Below are positions 47,941-60,444 of a stretch of 64,000 nt of DNA, one piece after another. The DNA is from a bacterium (GTDB lineage: Bacteria; Bacteroidota; Ignavibacteria; SZUA-365). A program made the translations under genes and the position numbers. Position 1 is the stretch's first letter; each line of letters opens with the position of its first letter. The notes under the pieces were generated by a model, which worked only from the letters and a program-made list of their open reading frames with translations, ran no database searches and was not told the DNA's origin. The DNA lies in NCBI GenBank assembly GCA_020444325.1, contig JAHLLD010000007.1:1-64000 (forward strand), given 5' to 3'.

Positions 47941-48846
47941 CTAATCCATGAGGTGAAGCGGTTTCCGCATCGCCATGCCGTATCCCCGCACATACCCGGT
48001 ATTCGCATATCGTATCGACTGCAGTAGAGCGAGGAGAGCCAGTCCTGCCAGGGCCCAGGCGCGGCAGAGTCGGCGCCGCAATCCTTTCGCTTCCCGATAG
48101 CTGAGCTGGCGCATCGCGTAAACATACAGCGCCTGGGTGACCGTGCTGTTTTCACGGTTGCGCGGGTCGGGCACATGCGAATACCGGGCGGATGCAAGCA
48201 ATCGCAGGCGTCCGCGCTGCGAGAGCTCGGAGGTAAACCATGCATCCTCACCGAAACAGCGTCCTGTCTCCAGATCGAGGGGACGCCCTGAAAACAGTGC
48301 GGGATCGAAGCGAATATCCCTCGCGGCTTCTGCGCGAAATGAGAGCACGGTTGAAGGCAGAATTCCGGCGTCGCCCGCGGCGGAAGCATGAATATTGAAG
48401 TCCGGAAATCCCGAACACAGGAAACGGTTTCGACCACGATCCGTCTGCAGCAGGAAAATCTTCCGGAACAGCAGTTCGAGCCCCTCCGACCGCGCTTCCA
48501 TCTGTTGCACACCACCGATACCCACCACATCGACTTCGGCGGAAAATGCATCCAGGATCACCTCACAGTACTGCTTGTCGAGCACTGCGTCGTCGTCGAG
48601 AAATGTCAGAATGTCTCCGGTGGCGGATTCCAGCCCGAGGTTTCGCTGCACCGCCATCCCCGCGGTGCTCTGCAGTCGCTGTAACCGGAAGGGCCACGCT
48701 TCCCCTGTCTGCGGCTGGAAGCGATGTTCTCCTGCTTCGACAAGTATCACTTCGTCCGGCACCCTGTGTTGGCTGCGCAGCATCTCGAGAGCATGCCTGG
48801 CGGTCTGAGGTCGATTCATCGTGATGATAATAATGGAATGCGTCAT
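47941..48846 (-). CDS. Family 2 glycosyltransferase
   Basis: 301 residues. GT-A fold: IIITMNRPQTARHALEML, GMAVQRNLGLESATGDILTFLDDDAVLD (the DxD metal motif) and the acceptor-site CFGEDAWFTSELSQRG. A C-terminal helix pair (WALAGLALLALLQSIRY) is hydrophobic and may sit on the inner membrane. Its ATG overlaps the aroBA stop by four bases (ATGA), so it is translationally coupled to shikimate biosynthesis, a surprising pairing. Donor and acceptor are unknown. Confidence 0.88.
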   Translation of the reverse strand: MTHSIIIITMNRPQTARHALEMLRSQHRVPDEVILVEAGEHRFQPQTGEAWPFRLQRLQSTAGMAVQRNLGLESATGDILTFLDDDAVLDKQYCEVILDAFSAEVDVVGIGGVQQMEARSEGLELLFRKIFLLQTDRGRNRFLCSGFPDFNIHASAAGDAGILPSTVLSFRAEAARDIRFDPALFSGRPLDLETGRCFGEDAWFTSELSQRGRLRLLASARYSHVPDPRNRENSTVTQALYVYAMRQLSYREAKGLRRRLCRAWALAGLALLALLQSIRYANTGYVRGYGMAMRKPLHLMD

Positions 48847-51149
48847 CCCTGCCTGTCATCCTCGACGGCTTCTGCGAGCCAGCCGCCTGCGCGCACGTCA
48901 TCCCAGAACGCGGGGTACGATTTGCTGACTGTCCACGGACGTGTAACGATAAGCGGCGTCTCGGCAGCGAGCGTAAGCAGCACCGCGGCCATGACCAGGC
49001 GATGATCCCCTTGTGTTTCAAACATTGACCCCGGCCGAATCGAATGGCCTGGATCAATCCGCAGCGCGGCCTCCTCAGCCACGGCATTGATGCCCACGGC
49101 GCGAAGCGACGCAGCAAGTCCGTCAAGCCTGTCCGATTCTTTGAAGCGAAGGTGAGCGACACCTGTAAAACGCACTGGATAGGCCACCGTCACGGCAGCG
49201 ACAGCCAGAACGGGGAGCAGATCAGGAACCGCATGCAGATCAAGCTCCACAGGCTTCCTCCTCGCTTCGCGAAGCTGAGAAAGATATTGATCCACCTCGG
49301 AATCGGGCTGACGCGGGACGCGCGCCTTGCGCCCGGGCTCCGCGGGATGACCGAGAAAGTGTGCGACGCTCCACACCGCACGCGAACTCGCATCGCATTG
49401 AATATCCATCGTCAGTTTCTCTTCAAGCCGTGTTGTCGGATTCAATGCAATCAGGCTCTTCTTGCGAATGACATCTACACCGGCCTGCTCAAGCATCGCA
49501 AGGGTTAATTCGAAATATGCCGGCGAAACCGGCTCTCCCATCAACCGAAGCGTGAAAGGCCGTTCGGATCCGGCCGCCAGCAGCGCAATCGCGGAGGCAT
49601 ATTGGGAAGACTCCGCGACATCCACCGAGAAGGATGCAGGGAATTGCTCCCAACCCTGGACAACAAATCCCTGTCCCGACAGATCATCAAATCTCTCAAT
49701 GGCGGCCCCGGCGCTGCGCAGGGAGTTGATGAGTGACTCATGGGGACGCCGCATCAGTGCCGGTGCGACAACGATTTTTGTCCTTGTCCTGCTCGTCGCG
49801 CAAAGTGCAAGCAGAAAGCGAAGCGTCGTACCGCCCTCACCGGCATGCACGGTACGCATATCGCTGGATGTCGCCTGGGATGAAGTACCCGCGGCACGGT
49901 CGGAGACAAAGCCTTTCTCCGACTCATCAAGCGGGTAGCCGAGCTGCTGCAGTGCGGCCGTCATACTGCGAACATCATCCGCTGCACTCTTGCCCACAAC
50001 GGTGCTGCGTCCCTTCCGCTGCGCCGCGATGATGAGCGCACGGTTCAGTTCTGACTTGCTGGCGTCGAGCGTCTGTTCGAGATTGCGCGGACTGTTCAGC
50101 GACACACGAAGTGAAGAAGATTGAAATTGCCGCACTTCCTGCTCGAGTGCATCGATCCAGTCGTCAGCACTGATATCAGTATGGACATGCGGATCACCAG
50201 GTGCGTGAAGCAGTACGGATCGCAGTGTGCCGTGGCTGCGCTTCTTGTCCCGCAGCATTGCTGCATGGAGGACCTCCCGTGAAGGGAGCGTGCCAATTGG
50301 AACAAGCAGCGGCAGCAGCGTCGCGCGGCAATGCTGCATGTCTCGATCCGACATCCCGAAACGCTCGGAAAACCGGAGGGAGGCGGCCATGCCCCACGCC
50401 ACGGAAGCACCATGACCGAGTCCCGTAACAAGCTCGAGCGCATGGCCCAGTGTGTGGCCGAGATTCAGCACCGTCCTCACCCCCTCTTCCTCGCGTGGAT
50501 CTTCAGACACGATGCGATGTTTGATGGATACCGCCGTTTCGATCATGTTGCCGAGCTGCGCCGATATCGTGGACCAGGGTGCGAATACCACTTCCTGCAT
50601 GATTTCCGTGTTCAGCGCGTGCACACTTCCGGCGTCGCCGAGCCATAGCGCCTTCAGTAGTTCGACCACCCCTTCGCGCCGCTGTCGTACCGGCAGGGAC
50701 GACAGGAATTGCTCGACGATGAGAATGCGGCTTGCGGGATAGAAGGTACCGAGCTGGTTCTTGGCGGACCCGAGATTCACCGCCGTTTTCCCGCCATGGG
50801 CGGAATCTACCATCGCCAGCAGTGTGGTCGGTACCTGCCAGAGTGTTACACCACGCCAGAGTATGCTCGCCAGGAACCCGACGGCATCCCCGACGCTGCC
50901 TCCACCCACGGCGACAAGCGTCAGCGGCTTGCTGCTGCGCCTGCGCAGGACGGAGGTGGCCAGCTCCTCGATGCTGGCAAGAGATTTAAGCCGTTCTCCG
51001 GCTTCGACAAGGATTGGATCGGGAAACGCGCGCAGCACCGGTTCAGGCAACCTGCGATCCGCAACGACGACGGCATCGTGCGGAAAAGTGTCGGATTCAA
51101 TCACTGCCATGCGCTGGATTTCAGGTGGCACGTATGCCGGAGATGACAT
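48843..51149 (-). CDS. Fused 3-dehydroquinate synthase / EPSP synthase (AroB-AroA)
   Basis: 768 residues from the ATG at 51149 (GAGG site). Residues 1-340 are AroB: VGGGSVGDAV (81-90), HGGKTAVNLGSAKNQLGTFYP with Lys121, zinc ligands Glu163, His232 (NLGHTLGHALE) and His246 (GLGHGASVAWGM), and KHRIVSEDPREEEG. A linker (about 341-352) leads to AroA: ASKSELNRALIIAA with Lys365, HAGEGGTTLRFL, RPHESLINSL, SSQYASAIALLA, DLLPVLAVAAV, HLRFKESDRL, GDHRLVMA and TVSKSYPAFW. Both halves keep their active sites, so one protein should catalyse steps 2 and 6 of the shikimate pathway. The order matches the first two domains of eukaryotic AROM. No frameshift or internal stop is seen. Confidence 0.93.
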   Translation of the reverse strand: MSSPAYVPPEIQRMAVIESDTFPHDAVVVADRRLPEPVLRAFPDPILVEAGERLKSLASIEELATSVLRRRSSKPLTLVAVGGGSVGDAVGFLASILWRGVTLWQVPTTLLAMVDSAHGGKTAVNLGSAKNQLGTFYPASRILIVEQFLSSLPVRQRREGVVELLKALWLGDAGSVHALNTEIMQEVVFAPWSTISAQLGNMIETAVSIKHRIVSEDPREEEGVRTVLNLGHTLGHALELVTGLGHGASVAWGMAASLRFSERFGMSDRDMQHCRATLLPLLVPIGTLPSREVLHAAMLRDKKRSHGTLRSVLLHAPGDPHVHTDISADDWIDALEQEVRQFQSSSLRVSLNSPRNLEQTLDASKSELNRALIIAAQRKGRSTVVGKSAADDVRSMTAALQQLGYPLDESEKGFVSDRAAGTSSQATSSDMRTVHAGEGGTTLRFLLALCATSRTRTKIVVAPALMRRPHESLINSLRSAGAAIERFDDLSGQGFVVQGWEQFPASFSVDVAESSQYASAIALLAAGSERPFTLRLMGEPVSPAYFELTLAMLEQAGVDVIRKKSLIALNPTTRLEEKLTMDIQCDASSRAVWSVAHFLGHPAEPGRKARVPRQPDSEVDQYLSQLREARRKPVELDLHAVPDLLPVLAVAAVTVAYPVRFTGVAHLRFKESDRLDGLAASLRAVGINAVAEEAALRIDPGHSIRPGSMFETQGDHRLVMAAVLLTLAAETPLIVTRPWTVSKSYPAFWDDVRAGGWLAEAVEDDRQG

Positions 51150-51191
51150 TGTGGCCTCGCTGCGTCTGTTCGGTTGGTTGGGCAATATAAG

Positions 51192-51237: not shown

Positions 51238-52746
51238 TCAACGGAACATTTCTTCCACTGGAACGATGGAAATGTTCTCACGTGCGATGTCGAGCGGGTA
51301 GGCTTCGATGATCTTGTCCTCCTCGAGAACCTCCTCCGGTTTGGGGGTGTCATAGGTCACAGGACTCGGTGTATCAGCTGCCAGCTCATCCGCGAACTCC
51401 TGCGCTCCCATGGTCACCATGGCAATGCGGAGATTCTTGTATTGCAGGTGTTTGCGAATCGCGGCGTTGACCTCATCGAGCGTCAGTCCGGCGATGTGCC
51501 GGCGGAACATCTCGATATAGTCCCCGTCGATCCCGTAAAATTTGCTGTCGATGGCATACCCGAGACGGCCCATGGTTGTTGTCGCATAGTGCAATGCATA
51601 TTTGTCGAGGAACTGCTGGGTAAGCGCAAACTCTTCCTGCGTCATGCCACTGTCTACCACATGCTGCAGTTCACGTATCGCCGCCCGCAGCGCGAAGTGT
51701 CGATGCTGATGCTGCACGGGACGCAGCCAGATTTCAAACAGCTGCTGCCTGCGGGCATGATTCGGTGCGGGCATGTGCCTGCTGCCGCCATTGGGAAAAA
51801 TCTCGATATACGAGTAGTCTCCATAGTTCATGCCGCGCGCCTCGCGTATCACCTGGTAGAGATGCGAAGAAGAATTGCGGTGTTCGCCGAACCAGGAATT
51901 GAACAGCGCCAGCGCCCAGAAATCCTCGTCCCCGCGCAGCACATCGATCGGGAAACCGAAGCTGATGGCGGTGGCGTTGCATTCCTTTTCAACGAGAAGG
52001 ACATGGCGTCCCTCGACAGGAATCGGCGCCGGTGCGCCCGGCTGCACGGTTTTCCCCTCGGGCAGCTGCATTTCGAAATCCCGTTCCAGGGTCGCGACCA
52101 GCGTATCTGCGTAGCCACCACCGAGCCCGATGACCACGTTGTCACGGGTAAACCAGGTGTTGTAAAAGGTGCGTACATCGTCGAGCGTGATGGCTTCGAG
52201 GCTGCTGACCGTGCCGAGATCAAGATGTCCATACGGCGTACCCTCGTAGACGAAGTTGTAGAACGCCGCCTTTCCGAGTTCCTCGTCGCTCGAATAGCGA
52301 AGAGACTTTTCGATACTGTTGATCATGTCGGTCTTGATGCGCGTAAAATCGTCTTCGGCAAACTTCGGGTGCAGCAGGGCATCGATGAAGTACGGATAGT
52401 AATCCTGGAGATTATCTTTGTGCACACGCCCGATAAATACCGTCATTTCCTTGTCAACAGTCACGTAATAGGATGCCGCCATCGGGTACAATGCCGAGAG
52501 AATGTCCTCATAGCTATGTTTCTCCGTTGCACCCTCGACCATCATGGATGCCGTGAGAGCGGCCAGTCCTTCCTTGCCGCCGGGATCGTTCTGGGATCCG
52601 GTCTTGAACCAGATTCGGAAAGAAATGGTCGGATCGTCCTTCACCGGGAGCAATACGGTGCTTTCGGAGGAGGGAACGCTGCAGGAAGTCATGAGCAGTC
52701 CGATAATGAAAATGGACAGAATTGAGATTGCTTGCAGTTGTTTCAT
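51238..52746 (-). CDS. M16-family protein, non-catalytic subunit type
   Basis: 502 residues from the ATG at 52746 (GGAGGA site). Lipoprotein signal (ILSIFIIGLLMTSC). The M16 fold can be followed (SFRIWFKTGSQNDP, KEGLAALTASMMVEG, TPYGHLDLGTVSSLEAI, the second half TAISFGFPIDVL), but the zinc motif HxxEH is absent: the matching place reads GLAALTASMM. It is therefore a structural partner for the catalytic M16 gene immediately upstream (two bases between). Periplasmic or outer-membrane anchored. Confidence 0.9.
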   Translation of the reverse strand: MKQLQAISILSIFIIGLLMTSCSVPSSESTVLLPVKDDPTISFRIWFKTGSQNDPGGKEGLAALTASMMVEGATEKHSYEDILSALYPMAASYYVTVDKEMTVFIGRVHKDNLQDYYPYFIDALLHPKFAEDDFTRIKTDMINSIEKSLRYSSDEELGKAAFYNFVYEGTPYGHLDLGTVSSLEAITLDDVRTFYNTWFTRDNVVIGLGGGYADTLVATLERDFEMQLPEGKTVQPGAPAPIPVEGRHVLLVEKECNATAISFGFPIDVLRGDEDFWALALFNSWFGEHRNSSSHLYQVIREARGMNYGDYSYIEIFPNGGSRHMPAPNHARRQQLFEIWLRPVQHQHRHFALRAAIRELQHVVDSGMTQEEFALTQQFLDKYALHYATTTMGRLGYAIDSKFYGIDGDYIEMFRRHIAGLTLDEVNAAIRKHLQYKNLRIAMVTMGAQEFADELAADTPSPVTYDTPKPEEVLEEDKIIEAYPLDIARENISIVPVEEMFR

Positions 52747-52748
52747 GG

Positions 52749-54086
52749 TCATTTCCTCCCCTTCAACGTTGCGATGGTGCGCTTCTCGGGTGTCAGATAC
52801 GTAGACACGGCCTGTCGAATATCGTCGGGCGTAATCTGGTCGTACGTCGCATACAGCGTATTGACCACATCGATGCCACCGGTGAGCGCAACGAACCGCG
52901 CGAGTCCGCCTGCCACCGCATCAGGCGTGTCCAGATCCATGAGGAAACTGTACTTGAGCCGCTTCTTGATATCGGTGAGCTGCTTCTCCGTCACCGGCGT
53001 GTCGCGAAATGCCGCGATAGTCTTGTCAATTTCCTGACGCACCATCTCGATATCCGACTCGTTCTTGATCATCGCATAGATGCTCCAGAGTTTGGGATCG
53101 CGGTTAAATCCGAAATCCGCCCCGATGAACTGGAGCTTCTGTTCCTTCAAAACCAGTTTTTTATAGATGTCGCTGCTTTCCCCGAAGAGCAGTTCACCGA
53201 GCATCGAGCCGGCGACCACGAGCCGGTTTCCGGCGTCGAGCGCGGGACTCTTGTAGGAAACCACCATGAGTGGCAGGGTCTTGCCGTCGTATCGGATATT
53301 GACGCTGCGCTCCCGTTTCTGCTCGGGTTCCGGGGTGATGTCCGGTTTCGCATACCCGGCTTTCCACTCTCCGTAATAACTGCGGATGAGCTTCATCGCA
53401 TTCTCGCTGTTGAAGTCTCCCGCGAGCATGAGCACGACATTGTCCGGACGGTAATAGCGGGAAAAGAAATCCCTGCTGTACTGATACATGGTGGGCATTG
53501 CCTCGATATCGGCTTCGAAACCGATGGTTGTATGCCCGTACGTATGGCGGGTAAACGCCGTCTTCATCAGGTCTTCGAAGAGCACCGCCCAGGGATTGCT
53601 GCGGTTCTTCCGGTATTCACCATACACGGCACCGGCCTCTGTCTGAAATGCGGCTTCCTCATAATCGAGATGCTGGAAACGGTCGCTCTCGAGTTTGATG
53701 ACGGTTTCCAGGTCTTCCGACGCAAACGACATATGGTAGCAGGTGTAATCATCCGTGGTATATGCGTTGGCATCCGCACCCATTTCAGTGACCATACGGT
53801 CGTAAACTTTCGCGGGATAGTTTTTCGTGCCGCGAAACATCATGTGTTCGAAAAAGTGCGCAAAACCCGTCTTTCCTTGTTCGTATTCATCCCGTGCACC
53901 TGTACGCACGACGCTGTAATACGACATGAGTCCGCCCGATTCCATGGGAATCATGATAACGGTCAGTCCGTTGTCCAGCGTTTCAACACGGTACTCGTAC
54001 GGAAATGCGCCGTTTCCTCCCGCTTCAGCCATGAGCGGCGCCCCGCACAACAGCAGTACCGTCAATGAGAACAGTAGAAGTCTCAC
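52749..54086 (-). CDS. M16-family zinc metallopeptidase, catalytic subunit
   Basis: 445 residues with a signal peptide (LLLFSLTVLLLCGAPLMAEA). HxxEH zinc motif in HFFEHMMFRGTKNYP, third ligand Glu in AVYGEYRKN, and the C-terminal M16 half (LPLMVVSYKSPALDAGNRL). Periplasmic; it probably degrades peptides as a heterodimer with the non-catalytic M16 lipoprotein encoded directly after it. Confidence 0.94.
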   Translation of the reverse strand: MRLLLFSLTVLLLCGAPLMAEAGGNGAFPYEYRVETLDNGLTVIMIPMESGGLMSYYSVVRTGARDEYEQGKTGFAHFFEHMMFRGTKNYPAKVYDRMVTEMGADANAYTTDDYTCYHMSFASEDLETVIKLESDRFQHLDYEEAAFQTEAGAVYGEYRKNRSNPWAVLFEDLMKTAFTRHTYGHTTIGFEADIEAMPTMYQYSRDFFSRYYRPDNVVLMLAGDFNSENAMKLIRSYYGEWKAGYAKPDITPEPEQKRERSVNIRYDGKTLPLMVVSYKSPALDAGNRLVVAGSMLGELLFGESSDIYKKLVLKEQKLQFIGADFGFNRDPKLWSIYAMIKNESDIEMVRQEIDKTIAAFRDTPVTEKQLTDIKKRLKYSFLMDLDTPDAVAGGLARFVALTGGIDVVNTLYATYDQITPDDIRQAVSTYLTPEKRTIATLKGRK

Positions 54087-54151: not shown

Positions 54152-54228
54152 GCCTGCTTCGGAAACATTCACATCATCAGCACGGCGGAGCTGAGCAGGC
54201 TGTTTCGGATCCCACCGGCTGTTTCGGA
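54152..54228 (+). repeat. Repeated 12-base sites upstream of the HTH-CHAD gene
   Basis: GGCTGTTTCGGA occurs perfectly at 54198-54209 and 54217-54228, 19 bases apart, and a near copy GCCTGCTTCGGA lies at 54152-54163. The region precedes the gene at 54312, whose product has two helix-turn-helix units, so they are candidate binding sites for it (inference). Confidence 0.5.
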
Positions 54229-54311
54229 ACCCGCGGGTTGCATTCTGGTGGGCATTTCTGTATACATGCATTTCCCGTCACCAGCAATAGAGACCACGCA
54301 GCAGGATCGCC

Positions 54312-55847
54312 ATGCAACTGACGTCAGAACAGCGTGAAGCACTTCAGGAACTCCTTCGCAATCCCGCACTCGATGCCGAGCGGCAGCGCAACGCCCGCCT
54401 GCTTCTCATGTATGACGAGGGCAGGGTCACAAGGGAAATCGCCGCTGAGGTGGGATTATCCGAGAGCCGCACACGCTACTGGCGCAAGCAGTTCGAGCGC
54501 AGCGGCATGCACATGTTTGACGAAGACTACGTCCCGCCGCGTCGCGCGGGAACAGGTAAAGCGAAACAGACACACGAACCATTGCTGACATCCGAACAAC
54601 AGGAGCATTTGCGCGCCCTTCGCGCCGGCGACATCGATGACGACATTGCGCGCCGCGTAGATATCCTGCTTTCATATGCAGACGGGAAGGAAACACGCAG
54701 CATCGCGGAAGAAGTCGGACTCTCTCCGAGCCGTACACGTTACTGGCGCAAGGCGTTTGAGCGCGATGGGATGTCAATAATCGCGGAGACTTCACCGTCG
54801 GTGCCGGAGAACGCACCCGAACGCGCGGGCTCGCAGAACGCAGCCGCCAGCGCGGGCTCGCAGAACGCAGCGACGGAGACAAAGAAGAAGAAAAAGCTAC
54901 CGGGATTGCAGCGCTTCGACAGCTTTTCGGAGGCGGGACGCAAGGTGCTGCGCCTGCATTTCGAGGAGATGCTCGCACACGGGGGCAGCGAGGCACTGGG
55001 TGAAGATATTGAAATCGTCCACCGGATGCGTGTCGCAACACGGCGTATGCGCTCTGCCTTCGACGTATTCGACGGGGCATTCACCGAGAAGACCGTGCGC
55101 CGTTTCCGCAAGCCGCTCAAGCGGACCGGGAAAGTTCTCGGCAGTGTGCGCGATCTGGATGTGCTGCTCGAACATATGCGCACATACGCCGCCACGCTGA
55201 AAGAAAATGACGCTGCAGCCTTTCGTCCCCTGCTCCACGCCTGGGAAGAAGAGCGGCAGCGGCATCTCGCGACACTGCGTTCATACCTGGATTCAGACGC
55301 GTACCGCGATTTCTGCAGGGAGTTCGCCGCCTTCGCCGAAACCCCCGGCAAGGGCACTGTCGAACAGACTGAAATTGTCGCCGGGGTGCAGAAACGCATC
55401 GTGCATATTGCGCCTGTCCTCATCATGGAACGGCTGACCGACATCCTCGCTTTCGACCACGAGCTGGGAACCGCCAGTCTCGACCGGCTGCATGCTCTGC
55501 GCATACAGTGCAAGAAACTGCGCTACACGATGGAGTTCCTCCAGGAGCTGCTCGGAAATGATGTCAAAAAGCTTATCAAACATGTGACAGATATGCAGGA
55601 CTATCTCGGACACCTGCAGGACGATCAGACAGCAGGACAGATGATCACCGCCTTTGTGCAGGACCTTGATCAGCGTCAGTCAGAGCTTCCCTTCGCAGAG
55701 CGGCTCAACGCTGCCCCTCTGCTCACCTACCTGGCGGACCGGCAGGCGCGCAAACATGACCTGTTGACAAATTTCCCTGCTGCATGGGAAGACTTCCTGG
55801 CCAGGGATTTTCGCAGCAAGCTTCTGAAGGCATTGCTGGCACTCTGA
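54312..55847 (+). CDS. Tandem HTH - CHAD domain protein
   Basis: 511 residues with a new-looking architecture. Residues about 3-65 and 93-152 are two homologous helix-turn-helix units; both carry REIAAEVGLSESRTRYWRK / RSIAEEVGLSPSRTRYWRK, a homeodomain-like transposase/regulator fold. A low-complexity linker (170-197) contains two AGSQNAA copies and a KKKKK run. Residues about 205-500 are a CHAD domain: EIVHRMRVATRRMRSAFDVF, VLGSVRDLDVLLEHM, LHALRIQCKKLRYTMEFL with many Arg/Lys/His. CHAD domains bind polyphosphate, so this could be a polyphosphate-tethered or -sensing DNA-binding protein. No transposase catalytic residues follow the HTH units. Confidence 0.88.
   Translation: MQLTSEQREALQELLRNPALDAERQRNARLLLMYDEGRVTREIAAEVGLSESRTRYWRKQFERSGMHMFDEDYVPPRRAGTGKAKQTHEPLLTSEQQEHLRALRAGDIDDDIARRVDILLSYADGKETRSIAEEVGLSPSRTRYWRKAFERDGMSIIAETSPSVPENAPERAGSQNAAASAGSQNAATETKKKKKLPGLQRFDSFSEAGRKVLRLHFEEMLAHGGSEALGEDIEIVHRMRVATRRMRSAFDVFDGAFTEKTVRRFRKPLKRTGKVLGSVRDLDVLLEHMRTYAATLKENDAAAFRPLLHAWEEERQRHLATLRSYLDSDAYRDFCREFAAFAETPGKGTVEQTEIVAGVQKRIVHIAPVLIMERLTDILAFDHELGTASLDRLHALRIQCKKLRYTMEFLQELLGNDVKKLIKHVTDMQDYLGHLQDDQTAGQMITAFVQDLDQRQSELPFAERLNAAPLLTYLADRQARKHDLLTNFPAAWEDFLARDFRSKLLKALLAL
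54823..54871 (+). repeat. Direct repeat in the linker of the HTH-CHAD gene
   Basis: A 22-base sequence ending CTCGCAGAACGCAGC is present twice in frame (54823-54844, 54850-54871), encoding the doubled AGSQNAA of the linker, likely by slippage. Confidence 0.9.
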
Positions 55848-55892: not shown

Positions 55893-57185
55893 TCAGAGCA
55901 GCATCCAGGCAATGAGGACCAGGCCCGTCAGCAGCACCAGCCCGAATCCGGGAAGTGTGAATTTCCGCAGCGACGCCGCGCCCAGGGAGAACGCGATGGA
56001 AGCCTTCACTATGGTATTCACGACAACAGCGATGAGAATGGCCGTAGAAGCGGTCGCCTCCGAAACAGCGTCCTTCGCAAGATTGGCCATCGACAGCGTT
56101 ATGGCGTCGACGTCCGTCAATCCCGCCAGTCCTGCCGCGAGAAACACTCCCCCACTTCCGAGATATTCCTGCGCCGCCTTTGAAACGAAAATGATCACTG
56201 CGAAAATCAAACCGAATTTTACGGCGGACATCAGTTCAAAAGGATTCTTAAGATCAACGTCGGAGCTGGCCTGTGACCGTTTCCGCATCAGGAGGAACAG
56301 GCTGGCCGCGACACCGCTTGCCGTGAGTATGGCAATCATGGGCCAGATAAAGGCGAGCAGTGACTGATTGACGACGGCGACCTCAACCAGGATGCGGGGG
56401 TACATGATTGTACAGGCGAGTATGATCGCTGACGCGAACGTATTGCCGAGTTCCGGCGCTTCTTTGCTTTTCTGGGAAAACGAGAGCGTCACGGCCGTGC
56501 TGGAAACGAGTCCCCCCATCATCCCCGTCAGAGACAATCCCTTCTTCGACCCGAACACTTTCACCAGTACATATCCCGCGAAGCTGATTCCCGCAATCAG
56601 CACGACCATATACCACACCTGGCGGGGATTGAGCACGTCGAGCGGTCCCATCGTCGTATCCGGCAGGATGGGGAGAACGATTGCCGTAATGATGGCGAAC
56701 TTCAGCGCGGCGTAAATGTCCTCCTCCTGCACGCGTCCCACCAGTCGATGCAGCGGGTCCTTGAGCGAAAGAAAAAGGGTAAGGACAACACTGGAGGCAA
56801 TCGCGACCGCGATCAGATCCAGGTGAATGAGCATGCCGAACACGAACACCAGCAGCGCCGCAACCTCGCTGGTCGCACCATGCGCACCCTGCTTCGCCTC
56901 GAGGTAATACGAAAGCGCGACGAGTACGATGAATCCGGCAGTCAGTACCGCCGTAAGCCAGGGTCCCATGACGGAGCCAAGCAGGGCTGCAAGAAAACCG
57001 AGCAGACCGATAAGCGGAAAAGTGCGAATACCCGCAAACAGGCGTTCGTCGTCGTTCCGTGCTCTCTCGCGTTCAACCCCGACCAGCAGTCCCACCAGCA
57101 GCGCAATGCCCGCTTTCTCGAAAATCATGGGCAGTGTCATGTCCGGGATCTGAGTCTGGAGCAGAAGGAGTGGCATCACGTTCAT
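55893..57185 (-). CDS. MgtC/DUF4010-family membrane protein
   Basis: 430 residues from the ATG at 57185 (AAGGT upstream). The N-terminal MgtC-like part has ALLVGLLVGVERERARND and LFAGIRTFPLIGLLGFLAALLG; the DUF4010 part contains GMMGGLVSSTAVTLSFSQKS and AGLTDVDAITLSMANLAKDAV. Twelve or more membrane segments. The family is thought to act in ion or acid homeostasis, but no transport substrate is proven. It is convergent to the HTH-CHAD gene, 45 bases away. Confidence 0.88.
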   Translation of the reverse strand: MNVMPLLLLQTQIPDMTLPMIFEKAGIALLVGLLVGVERERARNDDERLFAGIRTFPLIGLLGFLAALLGSVMGPWLTAVLTAGFIVLVALSYYLEAKQGAHGATSEVAALLVFVFGMLIHLDLIAVAIASSVVLTLFLSLKDPLHRLVGRVQEEDIYAALKFAIITAIVLPILPDTTMGPLDVLNPRQVWYMVVLIAGISFAGYVLVKVFGSKKGLSLTGMMGGLVSSTAVTLSFSQKSKEAPELGNTFASAIILACTIMYPRILVEVAVVNQSLLAFIWPMIAILTASGVAASLFLLMRKRSQASSDVDLKNPFELMSAVKFGLIFAVIIFVSKAAQEYLGSGGVFLAAGLAGLTDVDAITLSMANLAKDAVSEATASTAILIAVVVNTIVKASIAFSLGAASLRKFTLPGFGLVLLTGLVLIAWMLL

Positions 57186-57315
57186 CTCATACCTTGCAGA
57201 TGGATTTCTCTGAATATAGAAGGCTGACCGCGGAGAACAAACCCTGCCCGTATGCGAAGGGAACAATCCCGTCGCTGATGTGTCTCCTCCCTGTCACCAG
57301 CGAGAGGAGCCCCCC

Positions 57316-59385
57316 GTGAAAAAAATCCTGTATTGCATTCTTATTGGCATGCTTGCGCTGCCCTGCCATCTGGAGGCGGGACGCCTGTATGCGAGAGTCA
57401 GTGGAAAGGCCTCTCCGATCTACAACCTCGAGCAGACGGAGGTCCACACCGCCGTACGCATCGACGACAGGCTGGCCACCACGCATGTTGACGAACGCTT
57501 TTTCAACGATACCGGACTGGAGCTTGAAGGGTTCTATGTGTTTCAGCTTCCTGAAGGTGCACGGGTGGATGGACTCTGGATGTGGGTGGATGGCGAGCGA
57601 TATGTATTCAAGGTCCGCCGTAAGGAAGAAGCCGAGGCCCTGTATGATTCGTTGAAAAATCAGGGCGTGGGTGATCCCGCCATACTCAGTTCCCTGGGAA
57701 GCAATCGATTCCAACTGCGCATTTTCCCACTTCGTCCCGGCGAAGTCCGGCGCATCGAACTCGAGTATTTCCAGCTGCTGCCCGTTGATGAGAGCGGCAC
57801 GATTCGCTTTTTCTACCCGATGAACCAGAGCGGCTACCAGCACGCCCCTGTGGCGGTGCTCGACATGCACCTTGAGCTGACCATGCAGGCTCCAATCCTT
57901 GATCTGCAGAGCAATTTCGACGGAAATCCCACGATACAGACACGCACGGAATACAGTGACAGACATATCGCAGTTGATTTCGGGAGTGAAAATATTCTGA
58001 TCGAGCAGGACTATGTTCTGACCTGGAAACTTGACGGTTGGGATAAAAAACTTTTCGTCCTTACCCATGGATCCGCCGCGGATCCAGACAGCAGCTTTTT
58101 CCTGGCGTGGTTTCCGGACCAACTTTCCGAGGAGGATATTATCCCGGTCGACTATATCCTTGCGCTTGACGCATCCGGCAGCATGTGCGGTCTGCGTGAG
58201 CAATTGCTGCGAGAGCTTCCCGCTCATATCATCCCGCGCATGCGTCCCATGGACCGGCTGCATATGATGCTGTTCAATCAGGAAGTCGCGCACTGGCCGT
58301 CGGATACGACACTGCAATTCCAGGATTCCATACTCCTCGCAAGCGTCAACCAGTTTCTCGGCCACCTGTATCGGCCGACGGGTATTACGGATTACGAACA
58401 GGTGCTGAGCAGCATTGCAACTCTGGCGCTGCGGGATGAAGCCATCACACGCTGCGTGTTCGTCAGTGATGGACTCGTGAATCGCGGGGCAAAGGGTTCA
58501 CTGGACCTGCTGGCGGCACTGGCGGTGGAGAACCACAGTGTGATGTTTTCACCGGTGTGCATCTATACCGATCATATCGAAGCAATGTACGATCTCGCGC
58601 ATCTTTCTTCCGGCGACATCTGCACTCTGGACCAGGGCATGGAGGTCGACGACATGTTCAAACGCTTCACGTATGCGTGGAGCACCGAGGCGGTGGTGGA
58701 CCTGTCACTGCAGTTCCCGCAGGGGACGATGGACATCACACCCCGGCACCGGGATGTTGCCGTGCTGCAGGCCAGTGCTGCCACGGGCAGATTCACACAC
58801 ACGCTCTCGGGCGATGCCATTCTCCGCTACAGGCTGCAGGGCGACGACCAGCCTGTCGAAAAACGACGCTCCATGATCCTCTGGAGAGACACCACTTCCC
58901 AGGAACAGATTGCGAGGTACTGGGCGGCGGCGAGAATTGAGGAACTCTGTGACACTCTGCGCTATATGGAAGATTCAACATCGATACGGGAGGAGGTCAT
59001 TCGGCTCAGTGAGAAATACAACGTCATCAGTCCCTTCACCGCATTCATCGTTTACAAGGATGTCGATCCAGGTGGTATGACGGCTCTGCACAGCGTCGCC
59101 GAACTGCATTCCCTGCGCCTCGATCAGAACTATCCGAATCCATTCAATCCCACAACAACCATATCCTTCTACCTGCCTGGCGCCGGACAACTCAGGCTGT
59201 GCGTCTATGACGCGTCAGGTCGCCTTGTTGACGTGCTCGCGGAAGGTTTTTTCCCGGCAGGTGATCATCGTGTCACATGGGACGGCAGAGACAGCCATGG
59301 CCGGATCCTTCCGTCAGGCAGTTACTACTGCGTGCTCTCGAGCGGCGGTGCACGGCGCGTGATCACCATGTCTTTTATCAAGTAG
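57316..59385 (+). CDS. VIT-VWA secreted protein with T9SS domain, GTG start
   Basis: 689 residues from a GTG at 57316, with a GAGAGGAG site seven bases upstream and a signal peptide directly after (ILIGMLALPCHLEA). A VIT domain (about 30-150: TEVHTAVRIDDRLATTHVDERF, EGFYVFQLPEGARVDGL, RRKEEAEALYDSLKNQG) is followed by a VWA domain with MIDAS DASGSMCG (about 290) and a late Ser/Thr position. The C-terminus is a T9SS domain with the textbook DQNYPNPFNPTTTISFYLP. An inter-alpha-trypsin-inhibitor-like adhesive surface protein. The next gene starts ten bases later. Confidence 0.92.
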   Translation: MKKILYCILIGMLALPCHLEAGRLYARVSGKASPIYNLEQTEVHTAVRIDDRLATTHVDERFFNDTGLELEGFYVFQLPEGARVDGLWMWVDGERYVFKVRRKEEAEALYDSLKNQGVGDPAILSSLGSNRFQLRIFPLRPGEVRRIELEYFQLLPVDESGTIRFFYPMNQSGYQHAPVAVLDMHLELTMQAPILDLQSNFDGNPTIQTRTEYSDRHIAVDFGSENILIEQDYVLTWKLDGWDKKLFVLTHGSAADPDSSFFLAWFPDQLSEEDIIPVDYILALDASGSMCGLREQLLRELPAHIIPRMRPMDRLHMMLFNQEVAHWPSDTTLQFQDSILLASVNQFLGHLYRPTGITDYEQVLSSIATLALRDEAITRCVFVSDGLVNRGAKGSLDLLAALAVENHSVMFSPVCIYTDHIEAMYDLAHLSSGDICTLDQGMEVDDMFKRFTYAWSTEAVVDLSLQFPQGTMDITPRHRDVAVLQASAATGRFTHTLSGDAILRYRLQGDDQPVEKRRSMILWRDTTSQEQIARYWAAARIEELCDTLRYMEDSTSIREEVIRLSEKYNVISPFTAFIVYKDVDPGGMTALHSVAELHSLRLDQNYPNPFNPTTTISFYLPGAGQLRLCVYDASGRLVDVLAEGFFPAGDHRVTWDGRDSHGRILPSGSYYCVLSSGGARRVITMSFIK

Positions 59386-59394
59386 GGGTCTGAA

Positions 59395-60444
59395 ATGCGC
59401 ATACTCACCATACTCGCTTTTGCCGCTATGCTGTCGGGTCATGTACTCGCACAGACATCCTCCTGGGAAGCGATGAATCGCGGACTGCAGCATACGCTTG
59501 TCTACACTATTGCCATCGATCAGACCGATTCCCTGCTCATGTACTGTGGTACCGACTATGGCAGGCTGTACAAATCGACCGACGGCGGTTTCAACTGGGT
59601 GCTCAGTAACAACGGAATTCCGACGATTTTCAGCACCGCACGCCTCTCAGCGCTTACCATAGATCCGGGTAACCCGAACACCCTGTATGCCGGTTTCAGC
59701 TCCGGCGGAGAAGGCCAGCCGCTTTTCATCAGTACTGATGCCGCCGGCAGCTGGACACCGGTCGGGGATCCTTCTGCATGGCCCGGTGGAGGCATTCTGC
59801 ACATCTATCGCTCCAATGGCACCGCTCCTGCACTCTATGCAGGTTCCGGGGACCGAAACGGAATATACCGGCGCAAGGACGGTTCTGATACCTGGGTAAG
59901 GGTTCTCGATGCGCTCGGTGTGCAATGCATCAGCGGACATCCGGCGAACCCATTCGTTCTCTTCGCCGGAGGAGCAACCAGTCCCGCACTCCTCCGCTCA
60001 TCAGATGAAGGCAACCACTGGTCACCGGCAACGGAAGGACTCAGTGGACTGGAGGGGCAAACAGGGGTTAGGAGCCTCGCACACTCTCCGAGTGATCCGT
60101 CGGTCGTGTTCGCCGGTGTTACCGGTCCGGGACATGGCCTGTATAAATCCGTCGATGCCGGACTGCACTGGAAACGCATGAACGACGTTGACCAGATCTC
60201 GGAGATCAGTATTCATCCCCGCAATGAGAACATCATGTACATCTCCGCCATTCATACCGGCGTGCTGCGCTCACTCGATGGCGGAACGACATGGGAAGGA
60301 ATCAATGACGGACTCCCGACTACCGACATCATGCGTGTCCGTATCGCACCCGGCTACCCGATTCGCGTTTTCGCAATGACACTTAAATACGGGATCTTCC
60401 GCATGGTCGATGAGGAACTCGGCGAGGAATGGCTGCAGTACTGA
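59395..60444 (+). CDS. Secreted small BNR/sortilin-type propeller protein
   Basis: 349 residues, signal peptide (ILTILAFAAMLSGHVLAQ). BNR-like blades: GRLYKSTDGGFNWVLS, PLFISTDAAGSWTPV, LLRSSDEGNHWSPA, GLYKSVDAGLHWKRM, VLRSLDGGTTWEG. It has no T9SS sorting domain and ends in EELGEEWLQY, unlike the two giant propeller proteins at 22804-30436. Probably periplasmic or carried by a partner. It sits ten bases after the VIT-VWA gene, so the two should be co-expressed. Confidence 0.88.
   Translation: MRILTILAFAAMLSGHVLAQTSSWEAMNRGLQHTLVYTIAIDQTDSLLMYCGTDYGRLYKSTDGGFNWVLSNNGIPTIFSTARLSALTIDPGNPNTLYAGFSSGGEGQPLFISTDAAGSWTPVGDPSAWPGGGILHIYRSNGTAPALYAGSGDRNGIYRRKDGSDTWVRVLDALGVQCISGHPANPFVLFAGGATSPALLRSSDEGNHWSPATEGLSGLEGQTGVRSLAHSPSDPSVVFAGVTGPGHGLYKSVDAGLHWKRMNDVDQISEISIHPRNENIMYISAIHTGVLRSLDGGTTWEGINDGLPTTDIMRVRIAPGYPIRVFAMTLKYGIFRMVDEELGEEWLQY

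Follow-up and report, generated by a model that had tools for sequence, protein, structure and literature searches.

A single gene within a 64,000-nucleotide stretch of DNA from a member of the Ignavibacteria (Bacteroidota; contig JAHLLD010000007.1 of assembly GCA_020444325.1, hereafter the window) encodes two helix-turn-helix (HTH) units fused to a CHAD domain. Ten of the 12 family species, distributed over three genera (g1, g3 and g5), carry the fusion at full length. On balance, we consider it probable that the product is a phosin whose HTH arm would recognise specific DNA sequences and link polyphosphate, or polyphosphate granules, to chosen chromosomal sites. The original prediction, made from the nucleotide sequence, had proposed a DNA-binding protein regulated by or tethered to polyphosphate. 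This is the part of it best supported by the anatomy of the protein; the suggestion of a 'nucleoid or stress regulator' stays conjectural. In the open-access literature we found no paper that describes a protein of HTH-CHAD architecture. What was known before concerns CHAD alone, CHAD with enzymatic partners, and DNA-binding proteins that engage polyphosphate by other means (Hfq and AlgP).

The gene is a single unbroken reading frame of 511 residues. As had been predicted, it includes no transposase catalytic part: Pfam identifies no DDE domain in the protein, nor any CYTH domain. The two HTH units lie where they had been placed. The motif SRTRYWRK occurs at residues 52-59 and again at 140-147, and the Pfam profiles HTH_23, HTH_28, HTH_Tnp_1 and HTH_29 all score over their cut-offs twice (approximately residues 25-72 and 111-153). 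The repeats had been called HTH_29/HTH_32-like, of which only the first name applies, since HTH_32 scores under its cut-off. The CHAD profile covers residues 212-445 with 175 bits (E 2.9e-51; curated cut-off 25.6 bits). An AlphaFold2 model derived from an alignment of the ten orthologues (mean pLDDT 84) predicts two four-helix HTH units (helices 5-16, 22-35, 40-47 and 51-69 in the first; 94-105, 110-123, 128-135 and 139-152 in the second), a linker disordered over residues 159-196, and a helical CHAD part extending from 205 to 510. A chance or misread ORF is ruled out by the ten orthologues together with the codon-position bias described below. The features are listed in Table 1.

Table 1. Features of the HTH-CHAD gene and its surroundings (window coordinates)
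Feature	Position	Strand	Basis and remarks
HTH-HTH-CHAD fusion gene	54312..55847	+	ATG at 54312, stop at 55847; 511 aa
First HTH unit, residues 5-69	54324..54518	+	Recognition helix GLSESRTRYWRK; Pfam HTH_23/28/29/Tnp_1
Second HTH unit, residues 94-158	54591..54785	+	Recognition helix GLSPSRTRYWRK; Pfam
Variable, probably disordered linker, residues 159-204	54786..54923	+	pLDDT below 50 over 159-196
CHAD domain, long type, residues 205-500	54924..55811	+	Pfam CHAD; fold match to 6qva; mapping of CtCHAD mutants
Putative sigma-70-like promoter of the fusion gene	54236..54270 (approximate)	+	TTGCAT-N17-TATACA; motif search and by-eye alignment of eight intergenic regions
Two tandem 19-nt repeats, candidate operator	54198..54235	+	GGCTGTTTCGGAWCCC; just upstream of the promoter
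M16 peptidase homologue, divergent neighbour	52749..54086	-	Pfam; conserved adjacency
Second M16 peptidase homologue	51238..52752	-	Pfam; conserved adjacency
MgtC-DUF4010 membrane protein, convergent neighbour	55893..57266	-	Pfam; conserved adjacency

A Foldseek comparison aligns the CHAD part with the CtCHAD-polyphosphate complex (6qva; E 5.9e-10, TM 0.85 on the target) as well as with other solved CHAD structures, with which it shares the fold of two four-helix bundles. In CtCHAD, the CHAD protein of Chlorobium, mutation of H253, R256, R260, R296, R418 or Y419 lowers polyphosphate binding, and CHAD domains do not bind nucleic acids (Lorenzo-Orts et al., PMC6537752). All ten fusion proteins have the same residue as CtCHAD at each of these six pore positions (H237, R240, R244, R280, R404 and Y405 in the window protein). 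The original prediction had allowed that the fusion might be unique to this genome or that relatives might have lost the CHAD arginines; ten species carry the fusion and in none are the pore residues changed. It had also described a full basic CHAD. The core (residues 197-446), however, contains 38 K/R and 38 D/E, identical to the counts in the aligned CtCHAD core, and is neutral overall and basic only at the pore.

The distal front and back basic patches of CtCHAD also contribute to binding but are not needed for membership of the CHAD group. The back patch is not kept in the fusions: R385, K389 and K390 are replaced, and K386 mostly so. K441 is replaced as well, while the position of R438 is K or R in nine of the ten proteins and H in that of G008. 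The alignment thus describes a CHAD domain with an intact pore and a reduced extended basic surface. With the back patch lost and K441 replaced, long chains could be bound less tightly.

All ten family genomes searched encode polyphosphate kinase (PF02503), five of them with two matches. Since these genomes include two without the fusion (G005 and G007), the co-occurrence with ppk that had been suggested as a check is consistent with the proposed function yet not discriminating. Pfam analysis of the neighbours in the window revealed no polyphosphate-metabolism gene adjoining the fusion. In a different genome (G286, L093 700-1203 and 1207-1689, both on the minus strand) CHAD is apparently split between two neighbouring genes, both of about 160 aa and each with approximately half of the domain, and similar split matches occur in further genomes of the class.

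The two HTH units of the window protein are 54% identical to each other (29-54% within single proteins of the family). Both recognition helices follow the consensus (G)LSxSRTR(Y/F)WR(K), where L, S, S, R, R and R are invariant. This shared sequence suits a single short DNA sequence read twice, and the near-invariance of the helices speaks for sequence specificity. In a tree of the repeats the second units cluster with modest support and the first units do not form one clean group. We therefore limit the claim to a duplication that seems to predate the divergence of most of the fusion-bearing species.

The profiles nearest to the HTH units are of the IS630 type (NF033545, 42 bits against a cut-off of 100), a likeness that had been pointed out beforehand. 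It concerns the first HTH of IS630-type transposases, and no other transposon part is present. The HTH model gave no significant match to solved structures (best E 0.07); the weak matches include sigma factors, double homeodomains, the CRISPR-repeat-binding protein 2lvs, Mos1, Tc3 and Pax5. The fusion gene is not mobile in its distribution, being present as one copy at a conserved family locus. That it is a transposase remnant is ruled out by this locus, by the intact recognition helices and by the lack of DDE in both protein and genome. Two further proteins with HTHs of this type were observed. One (genome G553, L086 1628-3409, minus strand) has 594 aa with six tandem HTHs and nothing else recognisable. 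The other (genome G414, L085 2204-2839, plus strand) combines one unit similar to the HTHs of the fusion (GLSPSRANYWRREF) with a lysine-rich tail that resembles a coiled coil; G414 also has a CHAD protein encoded separately, in a frame of 639 aa.

Mean pairwise identity over the ten proteins is 0.80 and 0.88 for the recognition helices, compared with 0.28 and 0.12 for the two linkers (the latter value concerns residues 158-196). It is 0.57 for the whole CHAD domain and 0.82-0.91 for two of the pore segments. On these alignments the recognition helices rank among the most conserved segments of the protein, and the degenerate transposase HTHs that the original prediction had considered as an alternative are not observed. 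Comparison of four pairs of species shows approximately 2-5 times more frequent differences at third codon positions than at first and second ones, both in the two HTH units and in CHAD, whereas the third-position excess is much smaller in the linkers. The HTH and the CHAD parts are both under purifying selection.

From these observations we infer the following arrangement. The CHAD pore would hold a polyphosphate chain, each of the two near-identical HTH units would read one copy of a short DNA half-site, and the flexible linker would connect the two. Near-identical recognition helices in both units would be expected if one half-site is read twice. The protein would in this way bridge polyphosphate or its granules to chosen chromosomal sites, with one of two outcomes: granules might be anchored to the nucleoid, or transcription at the bound sites might become polyphosphate-dependent.

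The first outcome can be taken by itself as a special case, in which the HTH pair only anchors granules (for their spacing or partition) and has no regulatory role. This is possible, although we tend to doubt it. Polyphosphate granules arise in the nucleoid region, and AlgP of Pseudomonas has been proposed to tether them to the chromosome (PMC9239181). In addition, attachment to granules has been described for CHAD proteins (Tumlirsch and Jendrossek 2017, cited in PMC9239181 and PMC8003754). A plain tether, however, does not need the sequence-specific reading that the near-invariant recognition helices suggest. The fusion would join granules to DNA as does AlgP, a histone H1-like granule protein of Pseudomonas aeruginosa, but AlgP binds DNA by KPAA repeats, and the passages on it in PMC9239181 mention neither CHAD nor an HTH pair.

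Within the class and the phylum, searches for the domain architecture, another check that had been suggested, identified the fusion only in the family. For the class, 61 genomes were searched with the protein and 391 with a profile, and no fusion was found outside the family. A profile search of the phylum (395 genomes, overlapping the class set) found CHAD alone or with other partners and two isolated HTH relatives but no fusion, so that together approximately 770 other genomes are without it. G005 and G007, within the family, have a partial CHAD match only. A scan of contigs from about 85,000 species, which detects close relatives only, returned three loci, each of which has the complete fusion and comes from a genome already found; public records label the relatives 'Ignavibacteria bacterium' or 'Bacteroidetes bacterium'. 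Plasmid records contained CHAD-only matches, none reaching 80% query coverage, and no relative was found in viral contigs.

The family locus has the order aroB-aroA fusion, two M16 peptidases, divergent HTH-CHAD and convergent MgtC-DUF4010, although several of the contigs compared stop short of the outer genes. The divergent M16 pair is present at all family loci with enough flanking sequence and the MgtC-DUF4010 gene at nearly all. Judged from this, the fusion is a vertically inherited gene. The aroB-aroA gene of the window (48843-51185, minus strand) is a 780-aa ORF with 3-dehydroquinate synthase and EPSP synthase in an AROM-like two-enzyme fusion, and is of the same length in several family members. 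On the other side are a VIT-domain protein with a FlgD-like/secretion-tail C-terminus (57280-59385, plus strand) and, directly after it, a BNR-repeat protein (59395-60444, plus strand). This gene pair also adjoins the locus in G001, G006 and G008.

A motif search of eight intergenic regions upstream of the fusion identified a promoter as the only conserved element, with the form TTG(A/C)(T/A)T-N17-TATACAT in the family and located about 40 bases 5' of the start codon in most of the regions. The search outperformed shuffled sequences at widths 14 and 22, but not at 10 and 18, and the promoter was the sole cause. No conserved operator was found in these regions. Direct repeats above chance are present upstream in two of the eight genomes, that of the window and G006, and differ in sequence. 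The 19-nt repeat of the window (two found, 0.07 expected in the window) is not conserved in relatives, most of which lack it, and is rejected as a conserved operator. A relaxed pattern merged from the repeats has dozens of sites in each of the nine genomes searched (approximately 2-10 times the reversed control). In G000, most of the sites inspected fall inside genes. One copy with two mismatches (C7:134428-134443; L054 1501-1516) follows closely on a strong promoter-like sequence, TTGACA-N17-TATTAT, behind which no clear gene lies.

The conserved divergent neighbour invites a reading in terms of local regulation: the fusion would be a polyphosphate-sensing transcription factor for the divergent M16 genes, for itself and perhaps for MgtC-DUF4010. 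Polyphosphate would compete with DNA or alter the oligomeric state, as with CtCHAD, which polyphosphate moves to higher oligomers (PMC6537752). This too is a special case of the bridging protein proposed here, and we regard it as rather unlikely. The conserved gene arrangement and the upstream repeats of two genomes would agree with it; however, these repeats differ from each other and are absent from the other genomes. Moreover, the order relatives G012, G014 and G015 have kept the M16 pair (M16b at 59-63% identity) and lack the HTH-CHAD gene, so the pair does not need the fusion.

It is unlikely, in our opinion, that the HTH pair has lost DNA binding and instead allows a CHAD accessory factor to contact other proteins or to oligomerise. 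The net charge of the HTH region is inconsistent among members (-6 to +8) rather than uniformly positive, and this would fit such a role, as would the fact that no operator was found; but S, S, R, R and R of the recognition helix are invariant in both units, a pattern of DNA contact and not of a drifting scaffold. Finally, it is very improbable that a domesticated transposase DNA-binding domain acts here against mobile elements with polyphosphate as co-silencer, in the manner of polyphosphate and Hfq in E. coli (PMC10954037), since, despite the IS630-type profiles, the genome of the window has no IS630-type DDE_3 domain and no further relative of these HTH units was found in it, leaving no obvious target.

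The bridging phosin that we favour can be compared with several known systems. Stand-alone CHAD proteins or phosins (CtCHAD, 6qv7 and 6qva; PptA, 6rn5) share its fold and all six pore residues tested, but CtCHAD and PptA carry no DNA-binding domain, and the back patch of CtCHAD is missing from the fusion. CYTH(TTM)-CHAD polyphosphatases (for example, E. coli YgiF) likewise combine an N-terminal partner with a C-terminal CHAD, the partner being a triphosphate tunnel enzyme instead of an HTH pair. CHAD proteins of approximately 500 aa in the related family f37 are presumably of this type. Compared with IS630/Tc1-mariner transposases, whose DNA-binding domain may be of a similar HTH type (NF033545 under its cut-off; weak, non-significant fold matches to Mos1, Tc3 and Pax5), the fusion has two copies of the same HTH and no DDE catalytic domain. 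Hfq, an Sm-fold protein, has no CHAD domain, unlike the fusion. Polyphosphate acts together with Hfq on DNA (PMC10954037), and this is likewise a case of the polymer acting on chromatin by way of a DNA-binding protein.

Polyphosphate granules lie in the nucleoid and influence the cell cycle, the response to DNA damage and silencing, and the link between the polymer and DNA is described as largely open (PMC9239181, PMC10954037). The HTH-CHAD fusion joins a dedicated, putative polyphosphate pore to paired, conserved helices that would read DNA, all in one gene. The connection becomes directly testable by means of this single gene, both in vitro and in a heterologous laboratory host, and the fusion could provide a module for building polyphosphate-responsive genes. 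It is a rather doubtful proposition that polyphosphate is the direct ligand of a sequence-specific transcription factor, making the protein a sensor and effector in one; if true, the level of the polymer would be read straight into gene expression.
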